Below are positions 42,368 through 64,000 of a stretch of 64,000 nucleotides of DNA, piece after piece. Origin of the DNA: Annona cherimola (lineage: Eukaryota; Streptophyta; Magnoliopsida; Magnoliales; Annonaceae); the NCBI GenBank assembly GCA_030490835.1, contig CM059973.1, positions 52,394,008-52,458,007 of the forward strand. The letters run 5' to 3'. A program made the position numbers and the translations under genes. The notes below the pieces were generated by a model. That model had not been told where the DNA came from. It made no database searches and worked only from the letters and a program-made list of their open reading frames with translations. Each line of letters begins with the position of its first letter. Positions within the stretch are counted from its first letter, which is position 1.

Positions 42368-42398
<31 letters not shown>

Positions 42399-42515
42399 TA
42401 TTTTCAAAAACTACTTTTCCCAACGTGGATACTCCCTGACTGGCGGGTTGAATTGACACACGGGTTAAGTATATTTTCTCATTTGAAAATAAAATAAATA
42501 TATATATGTGTATAT

Positions 42516-42550
<35 letters not shown>

Positions 42551-43200: not shown

Positions 43201-43261
43201 AATAAAAATAAATGTATGTGTATTTTCTATAAAAATATATCAAAATACACATATATATTCA

Positions 43262-43835
43262 AAGGCATCCAAAACCCTCCAAAAAGCCAAAGATGGCTCA
43301 AAACTTTTCAAAAAGCCCGTGATGGCCCAAAAATCTCCAAAAAGCCCAAGATGGCTCAAAACTTTTCAAAAAGCCCCTGATGGCCCAAAACTCTCCAAAA
43401 AGCCCAAGATGGCCAAAAACTCTCCAAAAAGCCCATGATGGCCCAAAAATCTCCAAAAAGCCCAAGATGGCCCAAAACTTTCCAAAAAGCCCAAGATGAC
43501 CCAAAAATCTTCAAAAAGCCCAAGATTGCTCAAAACTTTTCAAAAAGCCCATGATGGCCCAAAACTCTCCAAAAAGCCCAAGATGGCCCAAAACTCTCCA
43601 AAAAGCCCATGATGGCCCAAAAATCTCCAAAAAGCCCAAGATGGCTCAAAACTTTCCAAAAAGCCCAAGATGGCCCAAAATCTTCAAAAAGCCCAAGATG
43701 GCTCAAAACTTTTCAAAAAGCCCATGATGGCCCAAAAATCTCCAAAAAGCCCAAGATGGCTCAAAACTTTTCAAAAAGCCCATGATGGCCCAAAACTCTC
43801 CAAAAAGCCCAAGATGGCCCAAACTCTTGTCAACA
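43262..43835 (+). repeat. E6 5' LTR: 29-bp minisatellite
   Basis: About 19-20 copies of a 29-bp unit containing AAAAAGCCCAAGATGGC and CCAAAA. Because 29 is not a multiple of three, the array reads open in several frames on both strands; these short frames are not genes. The 3' LTR array (60422-60825) is about six units shorter. Confidence 0.9.
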
Positions 43836-44129
43836 AGCCCAGTTGGGCCCAAACCTTTTTAATTGGTCAAAAATGACCCAAACATACTTTTAAAATTCGG
43901 TTGAATCCATTTCTTGGTAAAACCACTCAATTGTTCAATCCAGAGGCTGAATGCGGGAGACGCTGGTTTCTTATATAAATACAGAAGCTGAAAGCGGGAC
44001 ACGCTGGTCTGCTGTGTAAATCCAGAAGCTAAGAGCGCACTTAGTTTGCTGTGTAAGGTCACTAGTGTAGCCGACGGGCCCCTCACTAGTTCCCAAAACC
44101 GAGTCATCGCTGGTCGACGGGCTAAGCGT

Positions 44130-44305
44130 AAACTCATATTCAAGTCATGGCGCGTGGCGTCATGAACCTCACATTTAAGACATGACGCGTGGCGTCATGT
44201 ACCTCATATTCAAGTCATGGCGCGTGGCGTCATGAATCTCACATTTAAGGCATGGCGCGTGGCGTCATGAACCTCACATTCGAGTCACGGCGCGGGGCGA
44301 AGTGT
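44130..44305 (+). repeat. E6 5' LTR: five 34-bp repeats with ATGACGC/GCGTCAT palindrome
   Basis: Unit of the form CATGRCGCGTGGCGTCATG followed by about 15 AT-richer bases. The core ATGACGCGTGGCGTCAT in one unit is a perfect inverted repeat around GTG, with TGACG on both strands, a core bound by plant TGA-type bZIP factors. It lies near the LTR end. The 3' LTR copy is at about 61120-61295. Confidence 0.75.
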
Positions 44306-44648
44306 ACTCATTTATCTTTATATTTTTGTTAGACACGATTTTTCGTGCACTTGTAAAGACGTAGAAGGATCTCCTACGCACTTCATTATTATTAAGCATT
44401 TTTTTATGGACCATTGTATTCAGCTCTTTTAATCAAGGGTTTTCTCGTTGGAGATGTAAAATCAGAATGTGGAACACAATGCAAAATATTTCTGTGATAT
44501 ACTTTTCGGACTCGGTTAAAGAATTGGATGCTTTAAAATTTTGCTGGGGAATTAATTAAGCATTTATTCTCAAAGCCGCAGGGAAAACAATTTTACATTC
44601 AACCAAGAAAGAATGATATATTTTTATTTCTCACGAGGCCGGAACAAA

Positions 44649-44664: not shown

Positions 44665-44760
44665 AAACATTCTCCCTTCATCTTTAAGAGCTGAAAACTA
44701 TGGTCTTTATATGCTTATTTTCTCGAACCTAACACTCTGAAATGCTCCTTTGCAGATTTC

Positions 44761-47700
44761 ATGGCACATTCGATGGCTTTTGGATTTTTGCCTAATGGTG
44801 GTTTTGTCATTTCTGAGCCAGACCACATGGATGCGGCTATCCCGCATCATTTTATTCGTGTACCAGAGAAGCCAGAGCACCGTGTCTATCGACACGTTGA
44901 CTACTCTCCTGCAGCGATCAAGCAAAGAAGAGACCGATCTGCACTACTCAAGGAGCCTCTTATTGTTCAAAGCTCGAACATCACTCCTATTCAACCAACA
45001 AAGTCTCTGCAGGCGCCAATCCAAACGGGCCCGCCTGCTCGACAGTCAGACTATGCCAAGAAGTCCGCCCACCGGCTTGCTGCATCAGCCCAACCAGCAG
45101 CACAACAGCCTGCAGGACAACCTGTTTTGCAGTCCCATTCCATAAAAAGGTCTGCGAGACAATCTACTGCAACTCGGCTAGCGCCAACTAGCCACCCAGA
45201 AGCCAATGTTCCCCGAAAAGGGGGCAAAACTGTGCTAAATCCTGTTCGGTGCACCATCACTCGCCAATTCGGACAGGCTGCCTCAAGGGTTGTTGACCTA
45301 GCCCCCCGACCTATCCAAGGTGACACCCAAGAGCGGAAGAAGTTAAGAAGACAAACCAAGTTTTCTCAGCTGGAGGCTCCATTGGCCGATGGAGGGGATG
45401 ACCAATTCAAGCCACAAGGACGTATTATTGTCCGATCCGGTTTAGGCACCTTGCGATTCGTCATCCCTGATCCGACGCGTTCGCCCCATCAGTCAACAAA
45501 TGCTCCATCTAGCTCACGAGCTAGGATCAAATGTCCAGGTCACTATGAGACTACCAACATGGTGACGGTTCCTCATCATGCATCAAGGAAACTAAGGAGA
45601 AAAGCGCAGCAGAAAAAGCATTTTGGGAAAATAACTTCCCGTTTAAACTTGAAGGCTTCACCACCACTGCCACCAGGGCCAAGATATAGGCTGTTCTCGC
45701 ACCCCCAACAAAGGGGTAGACCGCAAAAGAAGCCACTGCAGAGCGCTCACAAATTAAGAGCGCCTCAAAAGCCAAGACTCTTTAGCGGGTGGCAGTATCC
45801 CCAAAGGCGCCATACGACGTATCCACGTTCGGTGCTTAGGCTGATCCCTGATTTCATACACAAAAATCAATTCGCCTCATTGATCAGACTGAGGGAGGAT
45901 ATGACTTATGCGTCTGCTGTTGCCCCGTTCCGAGAAGAGCACCGGATGCCGCACCCCAAGAGAGAAGCTAAAAGGAGGAGACGTCTCCTCCAGACGACAG
46001 AAGTCAACATGGTGGACCTCACCCAGCCAAGCACTTCCAAAGCATCAGAGATGTTAACCCGTTCAAGGGCAGCCGCAATGCCCATTACGCCGCCATTCTG
46101 TAGCCTCTCTAATCCTGAAGGGATTAGGGCCGCCCTCCCAAGAGGTCAATTTGAAGCCTCGTACATGGTGGGCAAAGAAGAAGAGGTTCTTACACCCAAG
46201 TCTCAGCTCATTCATGACCTCCGGGAGGAGATTAAGAGTATGAAACGGGCTATGGAAACTCAAGACAACAAGACATCAGGTTCCCATCAACCACCATCAC
46301 CAAGGAACCGTCAATCAGTCCATCAGCCCGAGAAACCAATTAGGCAGCAGACCGAGGAAGATGAAAATGCAGAATTGGAGCAAGGCTTTCTGCAGTTCAA
46401 TAACCTACGTATCAATACTCCTCAAACACAAGATGCGCGGGTAAACACACCCCTGGGATCTCCACCCGGGTTTGTCGCGCAAAAGGAGGTGGTGCATCAG
46501 CTTGTAGCTGAATGCCTTCGTCGCCAGGCACCTCAACTCACTGGGGTCCCTACAACGACAATCAACAGGCCTTATCCCCCAGAGGTTGAAGCGGAGCTGC
46601 TACCTAGAGATTTGAAGCCACCAAAAATCCAATTCGATGGGATCGGGAGTGCGTTAAAACACCTGGCATCGTTCCATTATGCCATGGGCAACTGGGCGCA
46701 CCATTCGAATTTTTGTCTTCGAATGTTTCCCAATACTCTTTCTGGTGATGCTTTCCAGTGGTACATATCTCTCCCAACCGGCTCAGTTCGAACATGGGAA
46801 GAGATGAAAGAAATGTTCGCCTCCCGATTCGTTGATACTACACGAGAAGTACAACTATCGGAATTATCTATCTTGTCCCAAAAGAAGGACGAGCCGGTTG
46901 AAGACTACATCACTAGATGGCAAAGGGCCGCTAACCGATGTCAAGCACCCCTATCTCAAGCAATGAAGGTCAATCTTTGCCGAAATGGCATCAAGACGGA
47001 AATCTCGTTGCTAATGAATGAACAGCTAAGTACATTTCAGGCCCTAGCTACAGAGGCTTGTCGAAAAGAGTATTTGTTGTCTCAGCAAAAAGCCTGGAAG
47101 AAGGAATCATCCACAACTACTATGTTCAAGAAGAAGAAAACTGGAGAGACCTCTGCAAACACTACAGAGGTTAAGAAGCAGCCAGATAAAGCAAAGCCGC
47201 CAGCAAAAGAGCAGCCTGCAAAACCCTTTCGAAGAGAGGAAATCCAATACGCCTTCGGGGAAGATGATGTGGAGACGCTATTCCAGCACCTCATGTCGAC
47301 CGGGCTATTCGAGTTGCCCGCCCCAAAAAGGCCAGAAGAAGTTGGACGCACTTCTCACCAGCGATATTGCAGTTACCACCGATATGTCGGTCACCCCACT
47401 AAGAAGTGTTGGGATCTCCAAGCAATATTGCAGGATTACATCGACAAGGGGGTTATAAAACTCAGTCCTCCAGCGCAAGCTTCATCAAATGTTGTGACAA
47501 TTGAAATAGCAAAAAAAGGTGATTGGGAAGTGGTTCGAAAACCACCAAGCCTAAGACGGACAAAAAGATGTCTCAAAGATTTATGCAGAAAAGACAAAAG
47601 AATAAGGGATAAGGCCATTCTCCCTTTCTTCTCAAGGCTTTTGAGGCAATCTTCACGGGTGCAACCATTCATGATCATGGACTTTTTGCAGCCCGAGTTG

Positions 47701-49869
47701 CTACTCCCATTCTATCGACGGCTTGCTGGAAGATCACCTCGACCAGAAAAAGAAAGATACATTCTCGAGGAGTTACCAAATACAACTCCATGTGAGAATG
47801 GTCTGTTTTGGGACCGAGATAGCAACAACGGAGAAATCGAAACTTGCTATCATATAAATGCGTCTGCATCCAAGCCTGCAAAGCGGCGAAGAACTGCCTC
47901 GGTGCTCATCCCTAACTACACCAAGTTTGAAGTTGGGATGTCACCGGTAAACCATATCATCACGTATTTGCGAGAATCTCGGCTTTTGCCAGCATCTTGG
48001 GAAACCAGAGTGGAATACTTCCGGTACTCACTGGGGGAATCAGTGATGTCTTGGTACCGAGATAATCATATCGAAGAAATTACCGAGTGGGTCATCTTGA
48101 TAGACGCGTTCTTGGTCCGCTTCCTGTCAAGACAAAGAGAGCAGTTCCCTAGTAATTACTTAAGGGAAATACAATACAGTCAAGAATCCACTGCTCATTA
48201 TGTAAATTATCTCAGAGACAGTACATGGAGTGATCCCTTGGCCATATGGTTGCCTGAACCTGAAATGGTCACGAAGTACCTTTCGGATGCGGTATGCCCT
48301 CCGGCTGACAATGGGTACAAGACCTTTGGAGCTAAAACTTTCATAAAGGCAATCCGGTGGGTCGGTAATGAAGGCTTCAAACAAGAGGCAATCTTTAGCG
48401 ACGCTGAAGGTTTTGGGAGGACAAATCAACTCCAAGTTCTGCATGTGCTGCAGTTAAACGATGCGCCCATTCTTCGAGTGTTCCCTTTCTTAACTAAGGA
48501 GTTAAGCTATAATTGGCCACATATTCAGTTATTCCATGAGAATCATAAGTATGCGTTGCCACACTTATTTGATTATTCATTGGCAGTCTGTCAAATGGGG
48601 CAAACAGAAGAGTTTGCACTCGGGCACTTTGTTTTGAGCTTGGCCCATGACAGTTGTGCCCTTCTCTGGATCTCCTCGCTTCCTGAAGAAGCATTTGGTT
48701 CTTGGGAAGAGTTCGTTGATATGTTTATCCAAAGATTTCATGAATATGAAACAGAGTTCCCTCCAGAGATGATAGAAGTCATGCACCCCCTATCAGGAGA
48801 GTCTCAATATGACTACATCTTGAGATGGATAAATTGCAGAATAATCAACCAAAAATTCGACAAAGAAGAAATCATGGTTCATCAGTGCATCAAGTCAATG
48901 AGTGGGTACTTTCCTGAAATCCCAAAAATACAGCCATTTTTCTCAGATGTACTACGGACATTGGCTACAAATATTCAGGACTCTGCCTCCTGCAATATGG
49001 TGCAAGTTGAAGAGGATGTTCTTGCAATTCTTCGATCTGGTCGAATCACACCAGAAAACAAGGGTAAAGCCCCAATGCAAGAAAATCGTACTCAGCCAGA
49101 ACAGCATATACCAGCCAATCATGAGAAATCCTCAGTAAGCTATAACGTGCTTGAACACTTGAAGCGACTCCCTGCTCGACTCAGTATTTACGATGCCTTG
49201 CAATTATCACAAGAAGCCAGAGATGCACTGGTTAGTGCTCTAACAGATGAAAATGTCCGTCTCGCTTATCTGGTCGACGCCACTGAGTGTGATGAAGTTA
49301 TTTCATTCACTAATGAGAATATGTTGCTTGGAGACGTTAATCACAACCGACCTTTATATGTTACGGGCAACCTAGCAGGTGAACTGGTTAACAGGATCAT
49401 GATTGATGCCGGGTCTGCAATTAATATCTTGCCCCTTCGAACACTCAGGAGGATCGGAATTTCTCCATCAGCGTTAAAAGACACTAGTGTGGTGATTCAC
49501 GGGTTTAATCAAGGGACTCAAAAGGCCATGGGCCTGATTGAGTTGGAACTAAGCATAGAAGATTTCTGCACCGAAATCCCATGCTTTGTGATTAATGCTC
49601 CAACCTCATATAACTTGCTGCTGGGAAGGCCTTGGCTCCACAGTAATAAGATAATCGCATCAACGGTGCATCAATGCTTCAAGTACTGCAAGGATGGAGT
49701 CGAAAAAAGGATTTTTGCTGACCATAAACCTTTCACAACGGCGGAATCATTTTACTCTGATGCTAAGTATTATGACTTGGCATCTGCTGTCAACACATCA
49801 AGGAAAGCAGTTGAAGCGACCACACGCGAAGGTCAGCAGGAGGTATCTCAGGCTCCCCCGCCCCAGTAA
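44761..49869 (+). CDS. E6: giant gag-protease ORF, 1702 codons, with three gag-like modules
   Basis: Uninterrupted frame. Residues 1 to about 610 are basic and rich in Pro, Gln, Arg and Lys, without a known fold. About 620-790: a retrotransposon gag capsid (FQWYISLPTGSVRTWEEM, then DEPVEDYITRW). About 868-885: a zinc-finger-like YCSYHRYVGHPTKKCW typical of Tat/Ogre. About 1055-1160: a second gag-like module (MSWYRDNHIEEITEWVIL, STAHYVNYLRDS). About 1225-1385: a third (LLWISSLPEEAFGSWEEF, GESQYDYILRW). About 1547-1660: protease with MIDAGSAINILP and LLGRPWLH (DAG where many relatives have DGG or DSG). Stop TAA at 49867-49869. Ordinary gypsy gag has one such module. The ATG at 44761 is the first long-frame start after the primer site. 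Confidence 0.88.
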   Translation: MAHSMAFGFLPNGGFVISEPDHMDAAIPHHFIRVPEKPEHRVYRHVDYSPAAIKQRRDRSALLKEPLIVQSSNITPIQPTKSLQAPIQTGPPARQSDYAKKSAHRLAASAQPAAQQPAGQPVLQSHSIKRSARQSTATRLAPTSHPEANVPRKGGKTVLNPVRCTITRQFGQAASRVVDLAPRPIQGDTQERKKLRRQTKFSQLEAPLADGGDDQFKPQGRIIVRSGLGTLRFVIPDPTRSPHQSTNAPSSSRARIKCPGHYETTNMVTVPHHASRKLRRKAQQKKHFGKITSRLNLKASPPLPPGPRYRLFSHPQQRGRPQKKPLQSAHKLRAPQKPRLFSGWQYPQRRHTTYPRSVLRLIPDFIHKNQFASLIRLREDMTYASAVAPFREEHRMPHPKREAKRRRRLLQTTEVNMVDLTQPSTSKASEMLTRSRAAAMPITPPFCSLSNPEGIRAALPRGQFEASYMVGKEEEVLTPKSQLIHDLREEIKSMKRAMETQDNKTSGSHQPPSPRNRQSVHQPEKPIRQQTEEDENAELEQGFLQFNNLRINTPQTQDARVNTPLGSPPGFVAQKEVVHQLVAECLRRQAPQLTGVPTTTINRPYPPEVEAELLPRDLKPPKIQFDGIGSALKHLASFHYAMGNWAHHSNFCLRMFPNTLSGDAFQWYISLPTGSVRTWEEMKEMFASRFVDTTREVQLSELSILSQKKDEPVEDYITRWQRAANRCQAPLSQAMKVNLCRNGIKTEISLLMNEQLSTFQALATEACRKEYLLSQQKAWKKESSTTTMFKKKKTGETSANTTEVKKQPDKAKPPAKEQPAKPFRREEIQYAFGEDDVETLFQHLMSTGLFELPAPKRPEEVGRTSHQRYCSYHRYVGHPTKKCWDLQAILQDYIDKGVIKLSPPAQASSNVVTIEIAKKGDWEVVRKPPSLRRTKRCLKDLCRKDKRIRDKAILPFFSRLLRQSSRVQPFMIMDFLQPELLLPFYRRLAGRSPRPEKERYILEELPNTTPCENGLFWDRDSNNGEIETCYHINASASKPAKRRRTASVLIPNYTKFEVGMSPVNHIITYLRESRLLPASWETRVEYFRYSLGESVMSWYRDNHIEEITEWVILIDAFLVRFLSRQREQFPSNYLREIQYSQESTAHYVNYLRDSTWSDPLAIWLPEPEMVTKYLSDAVCPPADNGYKTFGAKTFIKAIRWVGNEGFKQEAIFSDAEGFGRTNQLQVLHVLQLNDAPILRVFPFLTKELSYNWPHIQLFHENHKYALPHLFDYSLAVCQMGQTEEFALGHFVLSLAHDSCALLWISSLPEEAFGSWEEFVDMFIQRFHEYETEFPPEMIEVMHPLSGESQYDYILRWINCRIINQKFDKEEIMVHQCIKSMSGYFPEIPKIQPFFSDVLRTLATNIQDSASCNMVQVEEDVLAILRSGRITPENKGKAPMQENRTQPEQHIPANHEKSSVSYNVLEHLKRLPARLSIYDALQLSQEARDALVSALTDENVRLAYLVDATECDEVISFTNENMLLGDVNHNRPLYVTGNLAGELVNRIMIDAGSAINILPLRTLRRIGISPSALKDTSVVIHGFNQGTQKAMGLIELELSIEDFCTEIPCFVINAPTSYNLLLGRPWLHSNKIIASTVHQCFKYCKDGVEKRIFADHKPFTTAESFYSDAKYYDLASAVNTSRKAVEATTREGQQEVSQAPPPQ

Positions 49870-50143: not shown

Positions 50144-53100
50144 GTTTGAGGTGGATTTGGAAGCTCTTCGGAGATTCCGGAATCAGGCCAATGAGGAAGC
50201 CAAGTCACTTTGCTGTGAGAGTGACGGAATGGCCACTTAGGCCGCTCACCAAAATCAAAAACCTAAGGAAACGCTCGATGAGGTTTTAGCAATGCTCGTG
50301 GGGTTTAATGTATCTGATCCAAGTGTGCAGGAACCTCAAGATGAAAAATTTGCCCAAAAACATTTCATAAAGCAGTATGGAAAGGTTTACGGTAGCCCTA
50401 ACAAATCCTCTTGTTTGCCCACGGCTAAGCTCAAGAAATGGGATTTCCATCGCTATAGCAGAGAAAGCAAGAAAATTATGGATTTGATGGGGTTCTATCC
50501 CGATGAACCACATTTATCAGGCCTCGGAAGTGACATCCCTATCCCGTTATCCGAAAGACCCCCTGGTTATAAAAAGGGAAACAAACGACTTGGCCTTGGG
50601 TATAAAGAAGAAGAAGACGGCAACTTCGCCACCACCTACTGTGTCTCTACAAGTGATGACTCCAACAATGATGAAGAGGCATTAATGGAACCAGAGGACG
50701 CTCCACCTGCGATTGAGGATGGAGGGCAGCCTACTATTGACGTACTTGAGGAATTCAATCTCGGGACTGAAAAGGACCCGAGACCCATTTTTATTGCCAA
50801 AAACTTGGCCGAAAAAGAAAAGGTGGCGCTGAGGCGGCTTTTAAGTGAATTCAAAGATGTTTTTGCTTGGGGGTATTCCGAAATGCCAGGACTCAACCCC
50901 GCGGTTGCAATGCACCATCTGCATATTTCGCGGGATAAAAAGCCAGTCAAGCAAGCTCCGAGAAGGTTTCGACCAGAGCTTGAAGAACAAATCATCAAGG
51001 AAGTTGAAAAACTCATTGATGCTCAATTCATTCGGGAAATCAAATTTCCGAAATGGATTTCTAGCATTGTTCCTGTCAAAAAGAAAAATGGGCAGATCCG
51101 CATTTGCGTAGATTTTCGAGATTTAAACGAAGCATGCCCTAAAGATGAATTTCCTCTTCCTTTCACTGATGTGCTAATCGACAGCACAGCTCTGTACGAC
51201 ACGTTCTCCTTTATGGATGGATATTCGGGATATAATCAAATCAAGATGGCTCCAGCAGATGAAGCTGCAATAGCATTTCGAACACCAATGGGTGTCTTTT
51301 GCTACAAAGTCATGCCTTTTGGTCTTAAGAATGCTGGCGCAACTTATCAAAGGGCTATGCAAAATATATTTCATGATATGTTACACAAACATGTTGAGTG
51401 CTATGTCGATGACCTGGTTGTAAGATCTGAAGGTCACAATAAGCATAAAGAAGATTTGAGATCGGTATTCTTGCGCCTAAGAAAGTATGATCTCAAGATG
51501 AATCCTCTCAAATGTGCATTCGGAGTATCATCTGGGAAATTCCTCGGGTTCATAATCCGCCAAAGAGGAATTGAGGCCGATCCACTCAAAACGGAAGCAA
51601 TTCAAAATATGCCGCCTCCACGAAACCTCCGAGAACTAAGGAGTCTCCAAGGCCAATTGTCATATATCCGACGTTTCATCTCCAACTTATCCTGCCGGTG
51701 CCAGCCTTTCCACAAGTTGATGAAAAAAGATACGACTTTCCAATGGGACGCGAAATGCCAACAGGCCTTTGAAGCCATCAAAGAATTGCTGCAAAATCCT
51801 CCTGTTTTGACAACTCCAGTAAAAGGAAAGCCACTCATTCTCTATATTGCTGCCAGCCCACAATCACTGGGGGCATTGCTCGCACAAGAAAATGCCCAAG
51901 GAAAAGAACAAGCCGCCTATTATCTCAGTCGACGATTATTGCAAGCTGAATGCAATTATTCCTCGATCGAGAAGATTTGTCTAGCATTGGTTTTTGTGGC
52001 ACAAAAGCTAAGACATTGCTTCCTCGCGCATCAGATTATACTTATATCGAAGGCCGATCCCCTCAAGTTCCTGATCACTAAACCAATGCTTTCAGGACGC
52101 CTAGCAAAATGGTCACTTCTGCTATCTGAGTTTGATATCAAATATGTGCCACGAAAGGCAGTGAAAGGACAAGCATTGGCAGATTTCCTAGCAGCCCATC
52201 CTCTTGAAGAAGAATTTCCCATCTTAGAAAACCTACCTGATGAGAAGGTTTTCTACGCAAATGATGATCCAATGTGGCAAATGTATTTCGATGGCGCTTC
52301 CAAGCCATCCGGAGCTGGTGTTGGAATTGTCGTAGTCTCCCCTCATAAAGACTTATTCCCGCACTCGTATTTTCTTGGAAGAAGCACAACAAATAATGAA
52401 GCTGAGTACGAGGCCTTACTCATCGGCATGGAACTTCTTCTGCAATCAGATATTTTATTTGTGTGAATATTTGGGGACTCTGAATTGGTTATCAAACAGT
52501 TAAATAATCAATACGAAGTACATCAGCCCCATCTGCGAAAATATTATGACAAAGCTCAAACTTTATTGGCAAAGTTCGAAATGGTTTCGGTTGAGCATGT
52601 TCCTCGGTCAGAAAATATAGTTGCTGATGCACTATCAAAGTTGGCCAGTATTCTCGCCTTTAATGAGCTCGATGACATGACAATTCGAGTACAAAGACTA
52701 GAAGATGACGAAGAGCTCCAAGTAAATCAAATTGGACGGTGTGTATCCGAGGTCACTACAAACAATGATGATTGGCGCATCCCTATCATTAACTACCTCA
52801 AATATGGCATTGAACCAAATGATCCAAGCGCGAGGAAGTCATTGAGAAAGGCTATTTCACGATATACTGTGTTTCAAGACGATTTGTACCGGATTGCTTT
52901 TGATGGGCTTTGGCTTCGCTGTATTGACGGAAATGATATCTGTCAAGTCCTTCAAGAGACGCACTCCAGCGAGTGCGGCGCCCACCAATCTGGACGTCGT
53001 CTTTATCATAGGATCAAAACATTGGGCTATTATTGGCCCACAATGGTCCAAGACTCCATCAATTTTGCAAAATCCTGTGAAGCCTGCCAAATGCATGGAG

Positions 53101-54020
53101 ATATTTATCATATTCCTGCTTCAGTAATGTCTCCAGCACCTATTTCGTGGCCTTTCTCTTGGTGGGGTTTTGATATTGTCGGTCCGATAAACCCGTCATC
53201 ATCTAGAGGACACTTATATATTTTAGCCGCTACGGATTATTTCTCCAAATGGGCAGAAGCTAAAGCTTACAAGAGAGTCCGAGCACAAGAGGTGGTTGAA
53301 TTTATCAAGCACAAAATCATCTACCGTTATGGTGTTCCCTATCAAATCACCTCAGATAATGGCACGCCATTCAAAAACGATAAAGTAAATCAGTTATGCC
53401 AAAAGTTTAGAATCAAGCAAATGTTCTCATCGCCTTATTACCCACAAGGGAATGGTCAAGCAGAGGCATTCAACAAAAATATTATTCGAATCCTCAAAAG
53501 GACCACTGTGAAAAATAAGCGTGATTGGCACGAGAGGTTACCTGAAGCATTGTGGGCCTACAGAACCACACATCGAACTGCAACGGGAGCAACACCATAT
53601 TCGTTACTTTTTGGTGCGGAGGCAGTTTTGCCAGTGGAAATTCAGTTAGCATCTTTGAGGGTTGCCATCCATTCTGGGTTAACTACTGAACAACAAGCTA
53701 AACTTCGCTTCGACGAGCTTGAGGCACTAGACGAGAAACGAGTTCAAGCGCGACAACGGATCGAACTCTATCAAGCTCGAATGATCGAAGCATACAATAA
53801 AATCGTGAGGCATCGCTCATTCAAAAGAGGAGATTTGGTGCTAAAGCTACGCACAGAGCTTATGGCCGGGGGAAAACTTACCGGCAAATTCGAGCCTAAA
53901 TGGGAAGGGCCTTACATCATTGAGAGGGTCCATGGCAATGGCACATATGAAGTTGTTAATTGCGGAAATCAAATGAAAGCAACCGTGAATGGGAATTACT
54001 TAAAAAGATACTATCCATGA
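49899..54020 (+). pseudogene. E6: Tat/Ogre pol (reverse transcriptase, two RNase H domains, integrase) with two nonsense codons
   Basis: One frame broken only by TAG at 50238-50240 and TGA at 52464-52466. It starts with a Gly/Arg run (GRGRGRGHGRG). Reverse transcriptase about 50880-51480 has VDFRDLN, FMDGYSGYNQI, MPFGLKNAGATYQR and YVDD (51402-51413). First RNase H about 51760-52110 (AASPQSLGALLAQ). Second, archaeal-type RNase H about 52280-52640 (YFDGASKPSGAG, GDSELVIKQL), interrupted by the TGA. Integrase zinc finger about 52960-53095 (CEAC), catalytic D in FDIVGP, D in SDNGT and E in GQAEAF (about 53170-53470), and a GPY/F end near 53910. The paired RNase H domains mark the Tat lineage. 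Confidence 0.92.
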
Positions 54021-54229
54021 AATTACAAAGAAAGTCATATATCAAAAGAATCTCTACAGCCTCCCTCGTAGAAGGAAGGGACTCCTTCAAAACTCAAATG
54101 GAGTTCACTACAGCAGTAGGAGAAACAGGTAACGGCTCTATCAATGTCAAATTCTCCCCGCCATGAGCATCATCATCAAATATTTCGACAACTAAGGCAG
54201 TTGTCAAAAAAAAAAAAAAAAAAGGGGGG
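54021..54229 (+). other. E6: spacer after pol with A/G homopolymer runs
   Basis: No gene seen. Ends in about 19 A followed by about ten G (54207-54235), just before the first AGO-like sequence. Such runs may be scars of template jumping onto poly(A) RNA, or polymerase slippage. Confidence 0.6.
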
Positions 54230-55700
54230 GGGGAATTTTCCCGTACTTCTCGGTTTCTTGCGGAGGTGGAGGAGATGGAGGCTGAGGAGAAAACTTTGCC
54301 GCCACCCCCACCTGTCATACCCCTAAGTGCGAAAAAAGTCTCAATGAATCGAGTTCCAATGGCAAGGTCGTGGTCGAGGGCGCGGTCATGGACAGAGTTC
54401 ACCAGACTTATATTGGTGATTTTCAGGGAAAGTACTTCGCTTATGATGGTGAGAAGAGCTTGTTTACAGTGGGGGCTCTTCCACAACAAAATTTTGAATT
54501 CGGTGTTGTCCTTGAAGACATGTCCTCAAACAAAGTTAGTGGGAATAGTAGTCCTCATGGTAATGACAGCCCCAGGGAGGGAGATCGGAAAAGGCAAAGG
54601 CGTTCGTATCAGACCAAGGCTTTCAAAGTTGAGATACGTTTTACTGCCAAAATTCCCATTGCAAACGCTCTGCGAGGACATGATTCCTAGAGTTCTCAAG
54701 AAGCCTTAAGGGTTCTAGATATAATCCTAAGGCAGCATGCTGCAAAGCAGGGATGCCTTCTGGTTCGACAGTCATTTTTTTCACAATGATCCTAGTAACT
54801 TTGTTGACATTGGAGCTGGAACCAGTCAAGGGGGGGCTTGTCTCTAAATATTGATGTGTCTACTACAATGATTATAAGGCATGGCCCTGTTGATGGATTT
54901 CTGATGGCTAATCAAAATGTTAGAAATCATAGTGAAATTGATTGGGGAAAGGCAAAGAGAACTCTGAAGAATCTGAGGGTGAAAACAAGACCCTCAAGTA
55001 TGGAGGAAGAGGCAATAGTCCGTCTCAAACCATTGAGATTACAGTTTTCGATTATTTTGGAAAGCTAAAACGCCCCACTTACTATCCTGCCGAGCTCTGC
55101 TCTCTAGTTTCATTGCAAAGGTATACTAAATCTCGATCAACTTTGCAAAGATCATCACTGGTTGAAAAACCACGACAGAAACCACAAGAAGGGATGCAAA
55201 CTTTAAGTAATGCATTAAGAAGCAGCAACTATGGTGCTGATAAAATGTCGAAGGCATGCGGTGTTTCGATCAATGGTAACTTCACTCAAGTAGAAGGCCG
55301 TGTCTTGAATGCACCAAAGTTAGAAGTTGGTAATGATGAATTCTTTCCTAAAAATGGTCGATGGAATTTCAACAATAAGAAACTTGTGGACCCTCTAAAA
55401 AAAAAAAAAAAAAAAATAGAAAGATGGGCTATTGAAAACTTTTCTACTCGCTGCGATGTTCGGTCTCTTGATCTGCACAAATGTGGGGCGATGAAAGACA
55501 TTGTCATTACAGAACCATTTGACTACTTTGAAGAGAACCCTCAATTTAGGCGTGCTACACCTACTGTTAGGGTCGACAAGATGTTCGAAATCATTCAGTC
55601 AAAGCTTCCAGGAGCTCCTCAGTTTCTTCTCTATGTTTTGCCTCAGAGAAAGAATTGCGATATATAATGGCCCATAAAAAAAAAAGAAAAAAGAAAAAAG
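54230..55700 (+). pseudogene. AGO4: E6: captured AGO4-clade Argonaute mosaic (N-terminus to MID start, no PIWI)
   Basis: Plus-strand pieces in AGO4 order but in changing frames: LPPPPPVIPLSAKK and RVPMAR (about 54285-54365); VMDRVHQTY, FAYDGEKSLFTVGALP, FGVVLEDMSSN, GDRKRQRRSYQTKAFKVEI, AKIPIANALRG (54385-54690); EALRVLDIILRQHAAKQGCL and FFHNDPSNF (54700-54800); LSLNIDVSTTMII, KAKRTLKNLRVKT (54840-55000); ITVFDYF, LKRPTYYPAELCSLVSLQRY, SNFTQVEGRVL, NGRWNFNNKK, ENPQFRRA and GAPQFLLYVLPQRKN (55040-55660). That spans the N, PAZ and start of MID domains. The slicer PIWI domain is absent. Several 20-60-residue stretches are missing inside, frames are shifted, and an A-run near 55398 is expanded. 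No introns are seen although AGO4 genes have many, so it came from RNA. AGO4 binds 24-nt siRNAs in RNA-directed DNA methylation. Confidence 0.9.
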
Positions 55701-55769: not shown

Positions 55770-55780
55770 GAGGGGGCATT
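55770..55780 (+). other. E6: polypurine tract
   Basis: GAGGGGGCATT directly before the 3' LTR start TGATGAGG; primes plus-strand synthesis. Confidence 0.75.
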
Positions 55781-57350
55781 TGATGAGGTATATTTTGGTT
55801 AGTCTATAAAATCATATGATTTTTCATGTAAAAAAAAAATAAAAATAAAAATAAAAAATAAAAAATAAAAAATAAAAAATAAAAAAAAGAAGAAGAAGAA
55901 GAAGATGAGCAATTGATGGATCAATTAGATAAGGACTTCACCTCCTTGGCACAATCAGAGGCATTTTTGTCTTTGACTCAACCGAATAAGGATAATTCTC
56001 TAAAGGCCCTTTTGAACAAAAAGAGTATAAAAGGGCCTAACCGGATGCTTATGATCGACTTGTGAAGGAAATGGTATCTTCTAATTCACGCCAGCATCGA
56101 CTAGACTCGGAAGCTCTGGACATAAGTAATCTGGGCAGGTTGTCTCTTTAAGCAATGGAATGGAATGTACCTCAAAACCCAGAGAGAAAAGGAATTCTTA
56201 AGGGAGCTTCTAATCAGAGAACAGTGTGCAAGATGGAAATCAGATTATCTATACAAGAGCCAATAAATCAGAGATCCAAAAAACTGTATTTTCTTTCGAG
56301 AAAAATATCCACAAGTGTTCCCACGTACCGAGAGTTTTTCAAACGAAAACCCTCGAATTACAGCTGCGACGTGCGTATTTCAAGATCTCGCTTTTGCTCA
56401 TCGTAAGTAACAGTTTTATGCAGTGTAGAAGACCAGACTACCGTTTTGCTTCCAGTAGAGAGTTTGAAGCCAAAAATACTCCAAAACCGGAGAAAATTGC
56501 ATAGGCGACTCAAATGCGACCGAAAAAAAAAAAAACAGCGCTGCTGCCCCTTTCTTGCCTCGAGAAGAGAGCCAAAAATCCGACCGCCCGTTCCCAAAAC
56601 AGGCAACAATGGCCTGATTTGCAACAGTTGAATGATCCGTGGGATTGCAGGGAATACAGAAGATGAACGAGACGAACGAAAGCTGCTGTCAGAGCATTTT
56701 TACGCTTTGAAAGGCGTGAAGGATATGTAGGCAGGGATTGTTAGCGATGGAAAGAGATCTAAGAAGAAGCAGCTTACGATGGAAGCAGGAATGAAATATA
56801 CATATATAAAGAGACAGAAGCACACACGGAAAAGAAGGATTGATTTCTTTCTTTCATTTTAAGGATTTCTTTCCATCTTTCGGAATTTTGTAATTGCATT
56901 GATAAATGTCGCCTCGTCTCCATGGAAATCTGCAGACTCGACCAGCCATTCCTTGCTTAAACGCAAGGAGCGGACGGCAGCCATGGAAGACGACTGAGAA
57001 GCAGAGGTCGGCTAGAGAGAACTCGGAGAAGGGGCGGGACGCCTTCGGCGGTGGGCCCCGCGTCCCTGGAGTCGTCAGAAGAAGGCTGGGAGAGGGTGGA
57101 GTGCGGCTGCTGGGTCTGCTGGTGCTTGCGGTGGTCTTGCACCGGATGGGTTTCCGTCAGAAACATGGATCCGCAGCAGCCCATTCTCCTCCGGCTCCGG
57201 CTCCGCCTCCGTCTGTCCATCTCAATGGCTTCTTGGCTCTCCATTTCTCTCCCAAATCCCTTCAAATCCCTGGAAGAAGAAGAGGAGGAAGAGAAGAAGC
57301 TAGCACTGCTTGTCTTGCCCGAATCATTTTTTTTTCCGGTGCAGATAAAG

Positions 57351-57521
57351 ATGGAGGCGGCGAGGACTGTCAAAAACGTTTCTCCTCACGAGTTCGTTAA
57401 GCACTACGCTGCTCATCTCAAGCGATGTGGAAAGATAGAGCTGCCAGATTGGACTGACATCGTGAAAACTGCGAGATTCAAAGAGCTTGCTCCATATGAC
57501 CCAGATCGGTATTACATCATG
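57351..57521 (+). pseudogene. RPS19: E6 3' LTR: RPS19 piece (second copy)
   Basis: Same as 40065-40235 with LKRCGK for LKRSGK. It ends at the same junction with the permease piece, showing that the fusion existed before this copy inserted. Confidence 0.87.
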
Positions 57522-58146
57522 GCAGCAGCATCGAAATGACAGTGGTGGCGATCACGAAGAGGGTCCACCACACCAGCCGGAATATGTTGAGCTTGTACGG
57601 CCGGGACATTGCCGGGATCGGGATGGAAATCTCCTTGGTGATGAATTCGCTCTCGGGCCATCGCTCCGCCGACCACTTCTCCACGAACGCGAACAGAGGC
57701 TGGCAGAAGACCTTGTAGGCGCCAACGAGGTGGGCGACGATGGCGGCGTTGGCGATGTCGAGCAGCCAGTAGGGGTCGTAGAGGCCGCGGCCGGTGAGGA
57801 GGTTGGCGGGGGCGGCATCGCCGAAGGCGGCGTAGCCCATGCAGCCACAGAGCATGTAGAAGATGGTGGTGATGGCGACGCTGAGGACAGTAGCTTTCTT
57901 CATGGTTTTTGCCTCTGACGGTGTCCTGCATCTCGATGAGGATGACGGAGTAGGAGTAGGCGAAGGCGATGTCGCCCAGCGCTTGGAAGCTCTGCCAGAT
58001 CTTCTGGGTCTTCGTCAGGACGCCCACGCTGATGCCGGTGAGGCTCCCTTTGAAAGCCTACCAGTTCTCTGCGACGTTGGCGATCCCCAGGCCTAGGCCG
58101 ATGGTAGAGTAGGTGAAGGACATGACGGCTATCAAACTCCGTGGAC
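57522..58146 (-). pseudogene. AAP: E6 3' LTR: amino acid permease piece (second copy)
   Basis: Same extent and same frameshift as 40236-40860. A few substitutions (AYKVFCQ for AYQVFCQ, FRLVWWT for FGLVWRT) have arisen since insertion or were inherited. Confidence 0.87.
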
Positions 58147-58855
58147 CGGAAGCCATGACCAACTTCACCACTCCTCCAGTCGATGCCTCGTCGGGGGTTA
58201 ATCAGACCACTATTTCCGGAGAGGACTCCTCCGACGAGTGCCAGAACCTCTCCTCGCCCACTTCCGTACTCCGTTTCTTCTCGCCGCCGGCTTCCGAAGA
58301 GGCGGACGAACAAAACCGGCACCAGTGATGAGAGTCGGTCTCAGCCGTCGAGTTTCGGCCCGATCGGGGCCTTCATTAACTGATGGCGGTCCCGTGTTGC
58401 CACTGACCCGCAGTTCCCTTTCAAGGTCCTGATGGATGAGCTCCGGCGTCATTGGCGGGGCTTATTCTCTTTCAGGGCAGCGAGCATTTGACTCCGGAAG
58501 AGAGACGCCGATTGACTTGGAGGACGGTTCATTGAATAATCCCGATTGGATTTCCGAGGGTAGGAGGAGGAGGAATGATTCTCTTCGCAAGAGAAGACGA
58601 ATACGCCGTTGCAGCTGCGACCAACTTCTACGACGAATCCTCCCACTCCATCTCAGTCGCGAATTTCTACGCAGACGACGGGGCAGCCGCTGTCGATTTC
58701 GCAGATAGTCGCCCAGCAGCTCGTCTGCCTCAAGATGGAGCCCGTCGTGGGCGACCGCAGCATGGATCACGTACCCGTCAAGAAGCCGCTGGTGTCGAGG
58801 CGAGTCCACCGGGACCAGCACCGTCCCTGCCATCGCGACGACTGTCGACGGAACG

Positions 58856-59157
58856 CTCAAGATACCGACGCAGTCGAAGCAGGAGACTCCGGCCATTGTC
58901 CGCATCAGCGATAAGCAGTGGTTTATCAGCACTGCCGGGACCTCGTCTTCTGTGGTGAGTCTGAAGAACGTCGTTTCCCAAATCAATCGGCTGATTGGCC
59001 GGCAATTCTCCGATCTAGAGCTCCAGCGCGATATCCAATCCATGCTGTTCAAGATCGTCGAAGGGCCGGATGGGTATCCGCTGGTCCAGGAGCAGTATCT
59101 CGGTAAAACGAAAATGTTCACCCCCACGCAGTTGCTTGGAATCGTCTTCAAGCGGCT
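58856..59157 (+). pseudogene. E6 3' LTR: Hsp110-like piece (second copy)
   Basis: Same as 41570-41871, with RLIGRQFSDLELQRD and TPTQLLG. It is followed by five rather than three GTTCCGCG copies and then the TATA box. Confidence 0.75.
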
Positions 59158-59302
59158 CCGCATACAGTTCCGCGGGAAAGCGGTTCCGCGTGAGTGCAGT
59201 TCCGCGGGAAAGCAGTTCCGCGTGAATCCGGTTCCGCGCAAGTGTAGCTTGGCGCCCAAGCAACGAAGTTCCGCGGAACCCATCCCAAGCCGGCAGAAAA
59301 TC

Positions 59303-59311
59303 TATAAATAG
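59303..59311 (+). promoter_or_regulatory. TATA box of E6 3' LTR
   Basis: TATAAATAG, copy of 41986-41994. From here, transcription could run outward into E4. Confidence 0.6.
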
Positions 59312-59559
59312 CCGCATTCGGCCCTTCATTCGGCACAGCGAGGGGGAGAGAACGGAGAACGGGGAACGAGAGCTCTCCCGCGCTGAAAAGAGAATGAGTC
59401 CTCCGTATATTTTTCTTTTCTCTTTCTTTTACAGAGAGCTCTCCCGCGCTGAAGAGAGAACGTGAGTTCTCCAGATTTTTATTTTTATTTTTTTTTTAGT
59501 TAAAAAAAAAAGAAAAAAAAAGGAGAGTTTCTTTCTTATATTATATATCTATATATACA

Positions 59560-60360
59560 TATATATTATTTTCAAAAAAAACTAATTTTCCCAACGTGGA
59601 TACTCCCCGACTGGCGGGTTGAATTGACACACGAGTTAAGTATATTTTCTCATTTGAAAATAAAATAAATATATATGTGTATATTATATATATAAATATA
59701 TATATATATATATTATTTTCAAAAATTACTTTTCCCAACGTGGATACTCCCCGACTGACGGGTTGAATTGACACACGGGTTAAGTATATTTTCTCATTTG
59801 AAAATAAAATAAATATATATATGTGTATATTATATATATAAATATATATATATATTATTTTCAAAAACTACTTTTCCCAACGTGGATACTCCCCGACTGG
59901 CGGGTTGAATTGACACACGGGTTAAGTATATTTTCTCATTTGAAAATAAAATAAATATATATATGTGTATATTATATATATAAATATATATATATTATTT
60001 TCAAAAACTACTTTTCCCAACGTGGATACTCCCCAACTGGCGGGTTGAATTGACATACGGGTTAAGTATATTTTCTCCTTTAAAAATATATATGTGTATA
60101 ATATATATATATATATACATATATATTATTTTCGAAAACTACTTTTCCCAACGTGGATACTCCCCGACTGGCGGGTTGAATTGACACACGGGTTAAGTAT
60201 ATTTTCTCCTTTTAAAAATAAAATAAAAAATATATATGTGTATATTATATATATATAAATATATACATATATATTATTTTCGAAAACTACTTTTCCCAAC
60301 GTGGATACTCCCCGACTGGCGGGTTGAATTGACACACGGGTTAAGTATATTTCCTCCTTT
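59560..60360 (+). repeat. E6 3' LTR: six tandem repeats of 130-150 bp
   Basis: Same unit as at 42230-43200; copies begin near 59585, 59731, 59871, 60010, 60141 and 60292. Confidence 0.87.
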
Positions 60361-60421
60361 AAAAATAAAAATAAATGTATGTGTATTTTCTATAAAAATA
60401 TATCAAAATACACATATATAT

Positions 60422-60825
60422 TCAAAGGCATCCAAAACCCTCCAAAAAGCCCGTGATGGCCCAAAAATCTCCAAAAAGCCCAAGATTGCTCAAAACTTTT
60501 CAAAAAGCCCATGATGGCCCAAAACACTCCAAAAAGCCCAAGATGGCCCAAAACTCTCCAAAAAGCCCATGATGGCCCAAAAATCTCCAAAAAGCCCAAG
60601 ATGGCTCAAAACTTTCCAAAAAGCCCAAGATGGCTCAAAACTTTCCAAAAAGCCCAAGATGTCCCAAAAATCTTCAAAAAGCCCAAGATGGCTCAAAACT
60701 TTTCAAAAAGCCCATGATGGCCCAAAAATCTCCAAAAAGCCCAAGATGGCTCAAAACTTTTCAAAAAGCCCATGATGGCCCAAAACTCTCCAAAAAGCCC
60801 AAGATGGCCCAAACTCTTGTCAACA
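60422..60825 (+). repeat. E6 3' LTR: 29-bp minisatellite
   Basis: About 13-14 units of the AAAAAGCCCAAGATGGC type. Apparent short proteins here (KPKMAQNFSKSP and similar) are an effect of the repeat. Confidence 0.88.
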
Positions 60826-61636
60826 AGCCCAGTTGGGCCCAAACCTTTTTAATTGGTCAAAAATGACCCAAACATACTTTTAAAATTCGGTTGAATCCAT
60901 TTCTTGGTAAAACCACCCAATTGTTCAATCCAGAGGCTGAATGCGGGAGACGCTGGTTTCTTATATAAATACAGAAGCTGAAAGCGGGACACGCTGGTCT
61001 GCTGTGTAAATCCAGAAGCTAAGAGCGCACTTAGTTTGCTGTGTAAGGTCACTAGTGTAGCCGACGGGCCCCTCACTAGTTCCCAAAACCGAGTCATCGC
61101 TGGTCGACGGGCTAAGCGTAAACTCATATTCAAGTCATGGCGCGTGGCGTCATGAACCTCACATTTAAGACATGACGCGTGGCGTCATGTACCTCATATT
61201 CAAGTCATGGCGCGTGGCGTCATGAATCTCACATTTAAGGCATGGCGCGTGGCGTCATGAACCTCACATTCGAGTCACGGCGCGGGGCGAAGTGTACTCA
61301 TTTATCTTTATATTTTTGTTAGACACGATTTTTCGTGCACTTGTAAAGACGTAGAAGGATCTCCTACGCACTTCATTATTATTAAGCATTTTTTTATGGA
61401 CCATTGTATTCAGCTCTTTTAATCAAGGGTTTTCTCGTTGGAGATGTAAAATCAGAATGTGGAACACAATGCAAAATATTTCTGTGATATACTTTTCGGA
61501 CTCGGTTAAAGAATTGGATGCTTTAAAATTTTGCTGGGGAATTAATTAAGCATTTATTCTCAAAGCCGCAGGGAAAACAATTTTACATTCAACCAAGAAA
61601 GAATGATATATTTTTATTTCTCACGAGGCCGGAACA

Positions 61637-62746
61637 ACCTCATCATCACAAAACGCCGATGAAATCGACTTACTTACAAAACGATTTAGAAAATTTGTAA
61701 GGAAAGGAAAAAATTTAGAAACTTTAAAGAAAGAAATTCTAAAAAGAAAGAAACAAAAAAATGTTACCGGTGTGGCGGTTCGGGGCTTATGCAAGCCCAA
61801 TGCTCAACGCCTGAAGAGACTAAAGCTAAGGAGCAAAGAAAAGATCGAGGCGACAACAGAAAATTTCAAAGAAATAGAGGAAGAGGCATGTACGTAAACG
61901 AAGAAGAATAAATGACATGCAGCTCTTCAAGTGAAGAATGTGAAGCGGATTGTGCAAGAATTTGTTGCATGGAAAATTCCGACATGTCTTGCAGCAACGG
62001 AAATCTTAGAGGATCAAGCTACTTCAACAAACTGCACAAGTAGTCAAGAGGTAACCTCCAAAGAAAAATCTTTTTCAATTTTCTCTTCTGCAAATGAATG
62101 CATCAAATGTGCTAAATTAGAAGAACTTCAACAAGCCTATGATTCATTATATGAGGAAATAAAGAAATTAGGAAACAAGTTTACAACAAAGAAAAGAAAA
62201 TGCGATGCAGTAATAATTGTAAACAGTAAACTTGTTGAAAAGATTGATCAATTGAAAAATGAAAGGAATACCTTAATAAATGAGTTAAAAAAACTCAAAA
62301 ATGAAAATGAATCATTAAATGAATCGCTTGCTAAGTTTTCTAATCCTGGAGAAAGTGTCAAAATGTTCTTAAAAATGACCACCCAAAGTTGTAAAAAAGG
62401 ACTTGGGTATACCACATTTGAGCAAGGGAATTCTAATGCTCCAAGGAACAAAGCCAAACCCATTCATGTTAAACCTAAGATAAATCATGTGGTTTGGACC
62501 AAAAGACCAATCGGGGAACCAATTACAAAATAGCTTCCCACTCCTAGACTCCCGGGAGCTTATAATTTTTGCAACAAGTTGGGACACAAGGTTTATCAAT
62601 GCAAATTGAGAAAATTATAAAACCTTGGTGCAAAATTGGTTTGGATGCCCAAAAGCATTGGATTTATGGCTTCAAAAGACGATCAATGTAGATTCCAATG
62701 GATAACTAACCCAAATGGACCCATAAAATGGGTACCAAAAAGATGA
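61637..62746 (+). pseudogene. E4: gag, second part, broken
   Basis: Resumes after E6: SQNADEIDLLTKRFRKFVRK, then a frame change, then a zinc knuckle CYRCGGSGLMQAQC whose His is changed to Leu, so metal binding is doubtful. Further stops and shifts near 61910-62030. An open stretch 61931-62533 holds the coiled-coil part (LEELQQAYDSLYEEIKKL, LNESLAKFSNPGESVKMF). A second knuckle (NFCNKLGHKVYQC) follows after a TAG at 62531, and the gag end KWVPKR with TGA at 62744-62746. Confidence 0.9.
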
Positions 62747-62771
62747 GCTCCACTTGACTTGATTTTTGCAG
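62732..62771 (+). promoter_or_regulatory. E4: gag-pol junction, splice-like 40-nt tract
   Basis: GTACCAA to TTGATTTTTGCAG, containing the gag stop. Removing it joins gag ..KW to pol VCLRAKANN in frame, as in E1 and E2. Confidence 0.4.
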
Positions 62772-64000
62772 GTTTGTCTTAGAGCTAAGGCCAATAACAT
62801 ATGGTTTATGGATGGTGGCTGCTCAAGACACATGACAGGAGAAAAAGGACTGTTCCATAAGATCAACTCGTGCAACGAAGGAACAGTTGCTTTTGAAAAT
62901 AATGAAAAAGGTAAAATAAAAGGTAAAGAAAATGTTTATGGTATTTCAAATGCATGTATTGAGGATGTACTATTTGTTGAAGGACTCAAACACAATCTAA
63001 TGAGTATTAGCCAATTATGTGACAAAGGATATAAAGTTGTATTTGAATCCTCTATATGCAATGTTTTTTATGATGAACACATAGTATTTAGTGGCAAAAG
63101 ACATGGAAATGTATATTTGGTTTGCCTAGATTAACTTGAGGAAAAATGTCTAATAGCCATAGAAAATGATCCATGGATATGGCATACAAGGCTTGGACAT
63201 ATAAATATGTCAAATATTAAAACCTTGTGGAAAAAGAATCTAATATAAGGGTTACCAAAGCTTAAATATGACAAGGATAAGATTTGCAAAGTTTGTCAAT
63301 TATCTAAACAACCCAAAATGCCATTTTCTACCAAAAAGGAAATTTCAATGACTAGACCACTTGAATTGTTGCATATGGATCTTTATGGACCATCTGACAT
63401 TTTAACTCTTGGTGGGAAAAAGTACGTGTATGTAATTGTTGATGATTTTTTAAGATTTACTTGGATTATACTCTTAGCTAGCAAAGATGAAACATTTTCT
63501 ATGTTTGTCACATTTTCAAATTTGGTGCAAAATGAAAAATGAAGTTCAATTATTTCCATTAGAAGTGATCATGGTGGTGAATTTGAAAATAAGCGATTCA
63601 TAGAATTTTACAATGAAAAAGAAATTCACCATACATTTCCTGCACCAAGAACTCCTCAACAAAATGGAGTTGTTGAAAGGAAAAATCGGACAATACAAGA
63701 AATGGCTAGAACTATGCTAAATGAGAGTAAGTTGTCCAAAAGATTTTGGGGTGAAGCTGTTAGTACAGCTGGTCATGTATTAAATCGAGTTACCATCAGA
63801 GCAATATTAAAAAAGACCCATATGAACTATGGAAAGGCAGAAAACAAAACATATAATATTTTCATACTTTTGGATGTACTTGTTATGAGTTAAATAATGG
63901 AAAAATAAATTTGAGAAAATTAGATGCCAAAAGTGATGAAGCTATCTTCCTTGGTTATTCATCAAATAGAAAAACATATAGAATTTTCAACAAAAGAAAT
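62772..64000 (+). pseudogene. E4: copia pol, 5' part (protease and integrase), broken and cut by window edge
   Basis: Follows E1/E2 pol: [12 protein letters not shown] (protease motif DGG instead of DSG), WHTRLGHINMSN and [11 protein letters not shown] (GAG-pre-integrase), [27 protein letters not shown] and [18 protein letters not shown] (integrase D, D, E). Stops at 63132-63134, about 63246 and about 63540, and frameshifts near 63820. E4 is the oldest and most decayed Sirevirus here, in line with being the host of the nest. Reverse transcriptase and the 3' LTR lie beyond 64000. Confidence 0.92.

Follow-up and report, generated by a model that had tools for sequence, protein, structure and literature searches.

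A large LTR retrotransposon family of Annona cherimola carries an intronless AGO4 segment apparently captured from host mRNA

Transduction of host genes by plant LTR retrotransposons is known from Bs1, rice and sorghum (PMC11963269, PMC13317346, PMC3726574). Maize Bs1 and further plant LTR elements that transduce genes contain host-gene pieces from several donors without full-length open reading frames (ORFs), according to PMC13317346, and in this they resemble the element described here. The Drosophila retrotransposon TART-A is similar in containing part of a gene taken from the host's silencing pathway, nxf2, and PMC7785250 reports piRNAs antisense to nxf2 together with lower nxf2 expression. 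Rice CACTA transposons are comparable in bearing a sequence, miR820, that matches a gene of RNA-directed DNA methylation (RdDM), OsDRM2 (PMC3459959). In architecture, the closest likeness is to Ogre/Tat and Retand elements, with which the present element has in common its size, two RNase H domains and a region between pol and the 3' LTR. An antisense TRP28 ORF is the Retand hallmark (PMC11963269).

The window, meaning the whole stretch of DNA analysed, comprises 64,000 nt of an Annona cherimola contig, and the genome searched was the 791.8-Mb assembly of 1,370 contigs. A complete LTR retrotransposon of 23.1 kb was identified at positions 38493-61636 of the window, flanked on both sides by the target-site duplication ACCTC. 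Tat/Ogre elements are defined by a second RNase H between RNase H and integrase, and such a domain was found before the integrase with the RVT_3 profile; we take the label Tat to apply to this two-RNase H element. The features are listed below in window coordinates.

38488-38492, unstranded: target-site duplication ACCTC, left
38493-44646, + strand: 5' LTR, 6,154 bp, TG...CA
39675-40253, + strand: ORF with ribosomal protein S19e fragment, 5' LTR cassette (S19e match C3:52434087-52434251, equal to window 40080-40244)
40231-40728, - strand: ORF with amino-acid transporter fragment, antisense, 5' LTR (module 99% identical to the Pfam-tested 3' LTR copy)
41423-41929, + strand: ORF with HSP70-like fragment, 5' LTR (counterpart of the Pfam-tested 3' LTR copy)
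44695-49869, + strand: gag ORF (Retrotrans_gag; aspartyl protease under cut-off)
50241-52466, + strand: ORF with reverse transcriptase and RNase H, plus the start of the second RNase H (RVT_3, under cut-off there)
52467-54020, + strand: ORF with the remainder of the second RNase H (RVT_3, over cut-off) and integrase; pol stop at 54018-54020
54236-55685, + strand: type I segment captured from AGO4B mRNA, 5'UTR to the start of coding-series exon 13, interrupted by internal deletions and by frameshifts
54236-54369, + strand: AGO4 block equal to AGO4B mRNA 63-196 (5'UTR and first coding exon)
54384-55004, + strand: AGO4 block equal to AGO4B mRNA 347-1009 (N domain and linker)
55005-55059, + strand: AGO4 block equal to AGO4B mRNA 1077-1131
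55054-55685, + strand: AGO4 block equal to AGO4B mRNA 1183-1806 (end of PAZ, L2, Mid)
55770-55780, + strand: polypurine tract (PPT) GAGGGGGCATT, adjoining the 3' LTR
55781-61636, + strand: 3' LTR, 5,856 bp, TG...CA, with short constant head, variable host-gene cassette and constant tandem-repeat tail
57366-57530, + strand: ribosomal protein S19e fragment, 3' LTR cassette (Pfam E 2e-17)
57517-58014, - strand: amino-acid transporter fragment, antisense, 3' LTR cassette (Pfam E 7e-29)
58709-59311, + strand: ORF with HSP70-like fragment, 3' LTR cassette (Pfam E 1e-14)
61637-61641, unstranded: target-site duplication ACCTC, right

An initial annotation of the window had placed a sense-strand, intronless AGO4-type sequence at 54230-55700, between pol and the PPT of an Ogre/Tat element. 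Pfam searches and alignment to the host gene AGO4B bear this out, with homology at 54236-55685, downstream of the pol stop (54020) and upstream of the PPT and LTR (55770 and 55781), and the second RNase H and the size agree with a Tat-type element. The two LTRs differ by a K2P distance of 0.0119 over 5,674 sites, which at rates of 1.3e-8 to 1.5e-9 per site per year corresponds to about 0.5-4 million years. The gag ORF encodes 1,724 aa, and a second gag-like stretch was seen by eye at residues ~1180-1450. The element seems to be inserted into an older Copia-type element (flanks 37800-38492 and 61642-63893, recognised mostly by eye), with a Copia-type integrase match under cut-off at 63543-63890.

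Two sense ORFs of the segment matched ArgoN (E 2e-12) and ArgoL2 (E 2e-10), both above the Pfam gathering score, and a partial PAZ (E 1e-4) and ArgoMid (E 4e-4), both under it. Database matches were named argonaute 4 or 16, with proteins of Cinnamomum and Tasmannia (79%) among the best AGO4 matches. The host genes AGO4A and AGO4B lie ~30 kb apart in the same orientation at C3:68559800-68597999, and their coding sequences are 89% identical. AGO4B (C3:68.56 Mb) is a predicted gene model, as its exon limits were set by GT-AG borders and an open frame; it has 23 predicted exons (one 5'UTR exon and 22 others) and encodes 898 aa in an open frame. Against the AGO4B gene, the segment aligned in 14 blocks that correspond to exons, with 82-98% identity (91% or higher in 13 of them) and the introns absent, and against the predicted AGO4B mRNA it aligned in four blocks at 89-95%. 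Alignment to AGO4A also gave 14 blocks, at 77-94%, and this lower identity rules out AGO4A as the donor. Among the other host AGO loci, whose clade labels are assumed here, one matched in just three short DNA blocks (74-85%) and the remainder gave protein matches of 29-52% or none. The segment thus matches AGO4B and AGO4A over the host's other AGO genes, in keeping with the AGO4-clade assignment first made, and its donor is, as judged by these alignments, host AGO4B.

Element copies lack the AGO4B introns, and the 5'UTR exon is joined to the ATG exon across an intron of ~2.2 kb. Three type II copies that were inspected (defined below) continue beyond the stop codon into the 3'UTR. Because the copies are intronless, 5'UTR intron included, and because 3'UTR sequence is present, capture is assigned to a mature AGO4B mRNA, in line with the capture from host mRNA proposed in the initial annotation. 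The segment accordingly shows the mark of a transduced host gene, an intronless copy situated between LTRs and moving with the element. Thirty-four copies, the 30 best of the DNA search and four PIWI-bearing loci, were aligned to the AGO4B mRNA. A junction from mRNA position 213 to 291 was observed in 26 of the 34 (the block of copy L023 restarts at 305); it is covered by a larger deletion in seven, and the remaining copy, L037, ends short of it. The resulting 77-nt loss begins at a GT within the first coding exon and shifts the frame, and its site is a cryptic donor in that exon. The 5' edge agrees within a few bases in 14 copies and follows an A run and a G run, the latter being what reverse transcriptase slippage at the mRNA cap would leave. 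A single AGO4B capture behind all copies is indicated by the common 5' edge and the common first-exon junction.

Two forms of the captured segment were distinguished. Type I, found in 30 of the 34 aligned copies including that of the window, ends by mRNA 1786-1809; in type II (4/34), mRNA 1303-1994 is missing and PIWI is retained from roughly profile position 84 onwards. Neither type contains mRNA 1808-1994. Genome-wide, eight type II copies were found by tag, identical to the eight PIWI-bearing intronless AGO4 loci. The initial annotation had noted an absence of PIWI; this holds for the window copy and its type but not for the family, since eight copies retain part of the domain. A tag for the intronless joining of exons 13 and 14 gave 0 matches genome-wide, and hence no copy carries that tag. 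All four combinations of deletions 197-346 and 986-1154 were seen (5/2/9/18 of 34 copies), and likewise all four of deletions 335-555 and 986-1154 (5/3/9/17 of 34), with the sets entered by hand from the block table and uncovered copies counted as being without the deletion. This mixture points to recombination between elements or to recurrent deletion.

The DNA search with the segment returned 386 candidates, of which 40 were scored. A tag for the intronless joining of AGO4 exons 8 and 9 matched 175 places genome-wide with at most three mismatches, and a pol-stop (pol-end) tag matched 330; reversed controls of both tags gave 0 matches each across the genome. These are counts of sequence tags, with overlap compared among the matches listed and placement in the element confirmed for a subset. 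On C1, the AGO4 tag adjoins the pol-stop tag at 14 of 24 places among the matches listed. Three of the other ten listed C1 pol-stop places were fetched and all three carry AGO4, so that no AGO4-free relative was found among those three. The AGO4 segment was present in 37/37 copies examined, 34 of which had been chosen by AGO4 or PIWI sequence. In the fetched flanks, a pol stop was located upstream in 32/34 and a PPT/LTR downstream in 31/34, in the same orientation; this flanking rules out an independent retrogene or a nested insertion. The AGO4 segment is a family trait of the retrotransposon and is not unique to the window copy.

In some places, copies follow one another on the same strand every 16-18 kb; one such row was spotted with the AGO4 segment (C2:88304891-88358107) and three with the pol-stop tag (C1:35536890-35573378, C4:41118472-41151195 and C2:102754871-102771783). 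Such a distance is close to the summed length of an internal region and a single LTR, 17.3 kb for the window element, and suggests that the copies form tandem arrays with LTRs in common.

The initial annotation had also raised the question of whether the segment is kept under constraint. Codon-position counts were made at sites where AGO4A and AGO4B are the same and at least eight copies are covered. Changes at codon positions 1/2/3 numbered 78/56/45 for singletons, 66/66/47 for changes in less than 25% of copies and 18/20/14 for changes in 25-90% of copies, compared with 61/48/188 for the differences between host AGO4A and AGO4B. The third-position share was accordingly 63% between the host paralogues versus 26% within the family, for which a share slightly below one third is expected because the counts leave out sites that distinguish AGO4A from AGO4B. 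Fisher and chi-square values assume independent cells, an assumption that inherited changes violate. The even spread over codon positions indicates that the segment is not protein-constrained within the family. Changes in at least 90% of copies were distributed 2/1/9 (12 sites, at least eight copies covered); a looser list that includes the type II part (at least four copies) gave 19 sites, 3/4/12, scattered and not in one tract. This spectrum, which resembles that of a gene under constraint, would reflect either a donor allele unlike today's AGO4B or an early coding-constrained phase.

Divergence was compared among the 25 copies in which every part was present. Pairwise distances averaged 0.058/0.049/0.104 for pol positions 1/2/3, 0.042 for the spacer and 0.068 for AGO4. 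The median ratio of AGO4 to pol third-position divergence was 0.86 (291/300 pairs) and that of AGO4 to adjacent spacer divergence was 1.6 (267/300 pairs), pairs being left out where the denominator contained no more than three differences. Evolution is slower in the spacer that separates the pol stop from the AGO4 piece (54021-54235) than in the piece itself. Relative to AGO4B, C-to-T and G-to-A changes occurred at 174/2,144 CG sites (8.1%), 256/3,722 CHG sites (6.9%) and 631/15,903 CHH sites (4.0%), a bias towards CG and CHG that is probably a mark of methylated DNA. Exact 21-mers kept numbered 18,561 against a shuffled expectation of 17,532, with a median z of 0.62 (range -2.3 to 3.8). Within the family, then, constraint was not clearly evident from codon positions, from divergence rates or from the retention of 21-mers.

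Outside the AGO4 segment, the LTRs of the window element and of copies L010-L038, L053 and L054 have a short head and a tandem-repeat tail that are both constant, with a variable cassette of host-gene fragments between them. Beyond the first ~160 bases, the 34 copies (of 37) in which the start of the 3' LTR could be read fell into 19 cassette groups, two copies being linked by 200 common bases at 80% and 630-1,482 LTR bases being compared per copy; link lengths of 100 and 400 bases gave 17 and 21 groups. Two 3' LTRs, of L018 (4.5 kb) and L036 (5.5 kb), were read to the end and contain ~2.5 kb of mostly unrelated start followed by a tail as in the window LTR. The first 65 LTR bases of L036 also match the window LTR; the head of L018 was recognised by its first bases alone, with two short inner pieces of 50 and 80 bases in common. 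A value of 0.52 was obtained for LTR divergence between copies and is unusable, since the cassettes over which it was computed are not homologous. A search anchored on one LTR type found the window copy alone.

Twenty cassette ORFs were picked by eye as gene-like, three of them from the window LTR, and 17 matched cellular Pfam families; the other three gave no Pfam match. The matches include HSP70 (twice), aquaporin, PP2C, raffinose synthase, P-type ATPase, amino-acid transporter (twice), dihydroxy-acid dehydratase fused to Clp N, LRR, 2-hydroxyacid dehydrogenase, fasciclin, bHLH, Toc75 POTRA, B-lectin, TPR and ribosomal S19e, with LRR and B-lectin (2/17) under the family cut-off. S19e is unbroken over profile 1-55 or 1-58 in seven LTR-type places, whereas three of six other places show exons beginning at 22-23; the S19e piece therefore seems to come from spliced RNA. 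Cassette modules recur beside different neighbours. Two long, open and chimeric cassette frames were seen, one of 464 aa with a fasciclin domain (L026:3-1394, - strand) and one of 274 aa joining the dihydroxy-acid dehydratase to the Clp N domain (L032:339-1160, - strand). The retrotransposon family seems to capture host sequence often, and AGO4 is one such capture, which happens to sit on the internal side of the PPT.

With a probability of roughly 0.7, these data are best explained by a capture-prone Tat-type family that captured one spliced AGO4B mRNA, the piece being mostly a passenger with possible siRNA crosstalk. Template switching would be the route: inside the particle, reverse transcriptase would leave the element RNA in its 3' part, continue on a host mRNA packaged alongside it and then return. 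A switch in U3 would be copied into both LTRs, and one between pol and the PPT would stay single. An AGO4B mRNA extending from 5'UTR to 3'UTR, a cryptic-donor transcript, would have entered between pol and the PPT and become fixed because a successful lineage carried it; the piece would then have been copied with the element, with further parts lost by deletions and methylation as the presumed mutagen. It would be transcribed with the element genome and likely feed the siRNA pool that silences the element, and some such siRNAs would match AGO4B with at most an incidental effect. The 77-nt loss shifts the frame, so no AGO4 could have been made from the start codon since it arose. A passenger is favoured by the absence of clear constraint within the family. 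Against it, the changes shared by at least 90% of copies (2/1/9) look as if they came from a gene, all 37 copies examined (34 of them chosen by AGO4 or PIWI sequence) contain AGO4 while the cassettes in the LTRs are exchanged, a pattern that a function could account for, exact 21-mers lie slightly above expectation, and the adjacent spacer evolves more slowly than the AGO4 part.

Counter-silencing at the RNA level, a possibility raised in the initial annotation and of the kind proposed for TART-A and nxf2, in which element transcripts or siRNAs would lower AGO4B by cleavage or exon methylation and relax RdDM, appears rather unlikely, even though the exact matches to AGO4B are extensive. The window copy and the AGO4B mRNA have 312 exact 24-mers in common, each of the 34 copies has 260-869, and jointly the copies hold 1,721 of 2,980, covering 2,388 of 3,003 mRNA bases. 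With hundreds of such 24-mers, a small-RNA effect on AGO4B may occur. Near-identity to a silencing gene, one property of small-RNA counter-silencing devices, was thus found, and constraint, a second such property, was not detected within the family; the young age of the capture accounts for the length of the matches, with no visible sign that they are kept. The segment is present in many copies, and TART-A/nxf2 (PMC7785250) and miR820/OsDRM2 (PMC3459959) offer precedents. At C7:69910172-69926552 (L037, L055 and L056) two elements lie tail to tail with their AGO4 pieces inverted ~12.9 kb apart, and read-through there could yield double-stranded RNA. LTR-end-like motifs in this pair are about 600 bp apart by fuzzy match. 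These points are countered by exact-match retention near chance, divergence near that of pol third positions, the sense orientation of the piece in copies with readable flanks, the intact predicted AGO4B gene and the non-silencing nature of the other identified captures in the family.

A combined version is unlikely: a serial capture machine, its LTR carrying an exchangeable host-gene cassette between constant head and tail, might keep AGO4B family-wide because its transcripts or siRNAs depress AGO4, opening RdDM to the whole family. It is highly improbable that the segment acts as intragenomic camouflage, whereby siRNAs on it would strike host AGO4 and host selection would disfavour silencing the element; the long exact matches to AGO4B suit such a conflict, which PMC13317346 describes for captured genes of maize, but the CG/CHG-biased decay suggests that the copies have been methylated anyway.

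The initial annotation had argued against a working protein, and the frameshift at the common first-exon junction and the longest stop-free AGO4-frame stretch, 362 of 898 aa (L026, among 37 fetched copies), agree; no complete ORF with N, PAZ, Mid and PIWI was found among the fetched element copies. A truncated N-PAZ-Mid or N-PAZ/PIWI product acting as a dominant-negative AGO4 is scarcely credible: the 362-aa stretch, the gene-like early changes (2/1/9) and an in-frame ATG three codons past the mutated start in the window copy are outweighed by that frameshift, the even codon-position spectrum within the family, the mutation of the window copy's start codon to GTG and the finding that an AGO4 frame is open over half of the protein in none of the fetched copies.

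In comparison with described systems, membership in Retand was rejected. No antisense TRP28 ORF was found, the antisense ORF between pol and the 3' LTR giving no Pfam match at E up to 0.1, and AGO4 occupies this region. Searches of the open-licence PMC literature, which omits most subscription papers, showed no case of a plant LTR element that had captured an AGO gene and no paper on a hypervariable U3 with transduced host sequence. As far as this literature search shows, AGO4 as the captured gene, its presence throughout a large family and the hypervariable LTR cassettes are new. A core silencing gene carried at up to 175 or more places constitutes a natural experiment on whether a transposon can direct small RNAs back at the gene that silences it. 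Capture within the family appears frequent from the hypervariable cassettes, so many young copies are available in which to study how mRNA is captured, step by step and at its junctions. miR820 is a microRNA with demonstrated repression and site coevolution (PMC3459959), whereas the present sequence is a long sense mRNA fragment with no detected constraint. Compared with TART-A, the present case is a plant LTR element with AGO4. Unlike Bs1 and its counterparts, the captured gene here is an RdDM Argonaute, present in 37/37 copies examined (175 tags), and the LTRs bear different host-gene cassettes in different copies.
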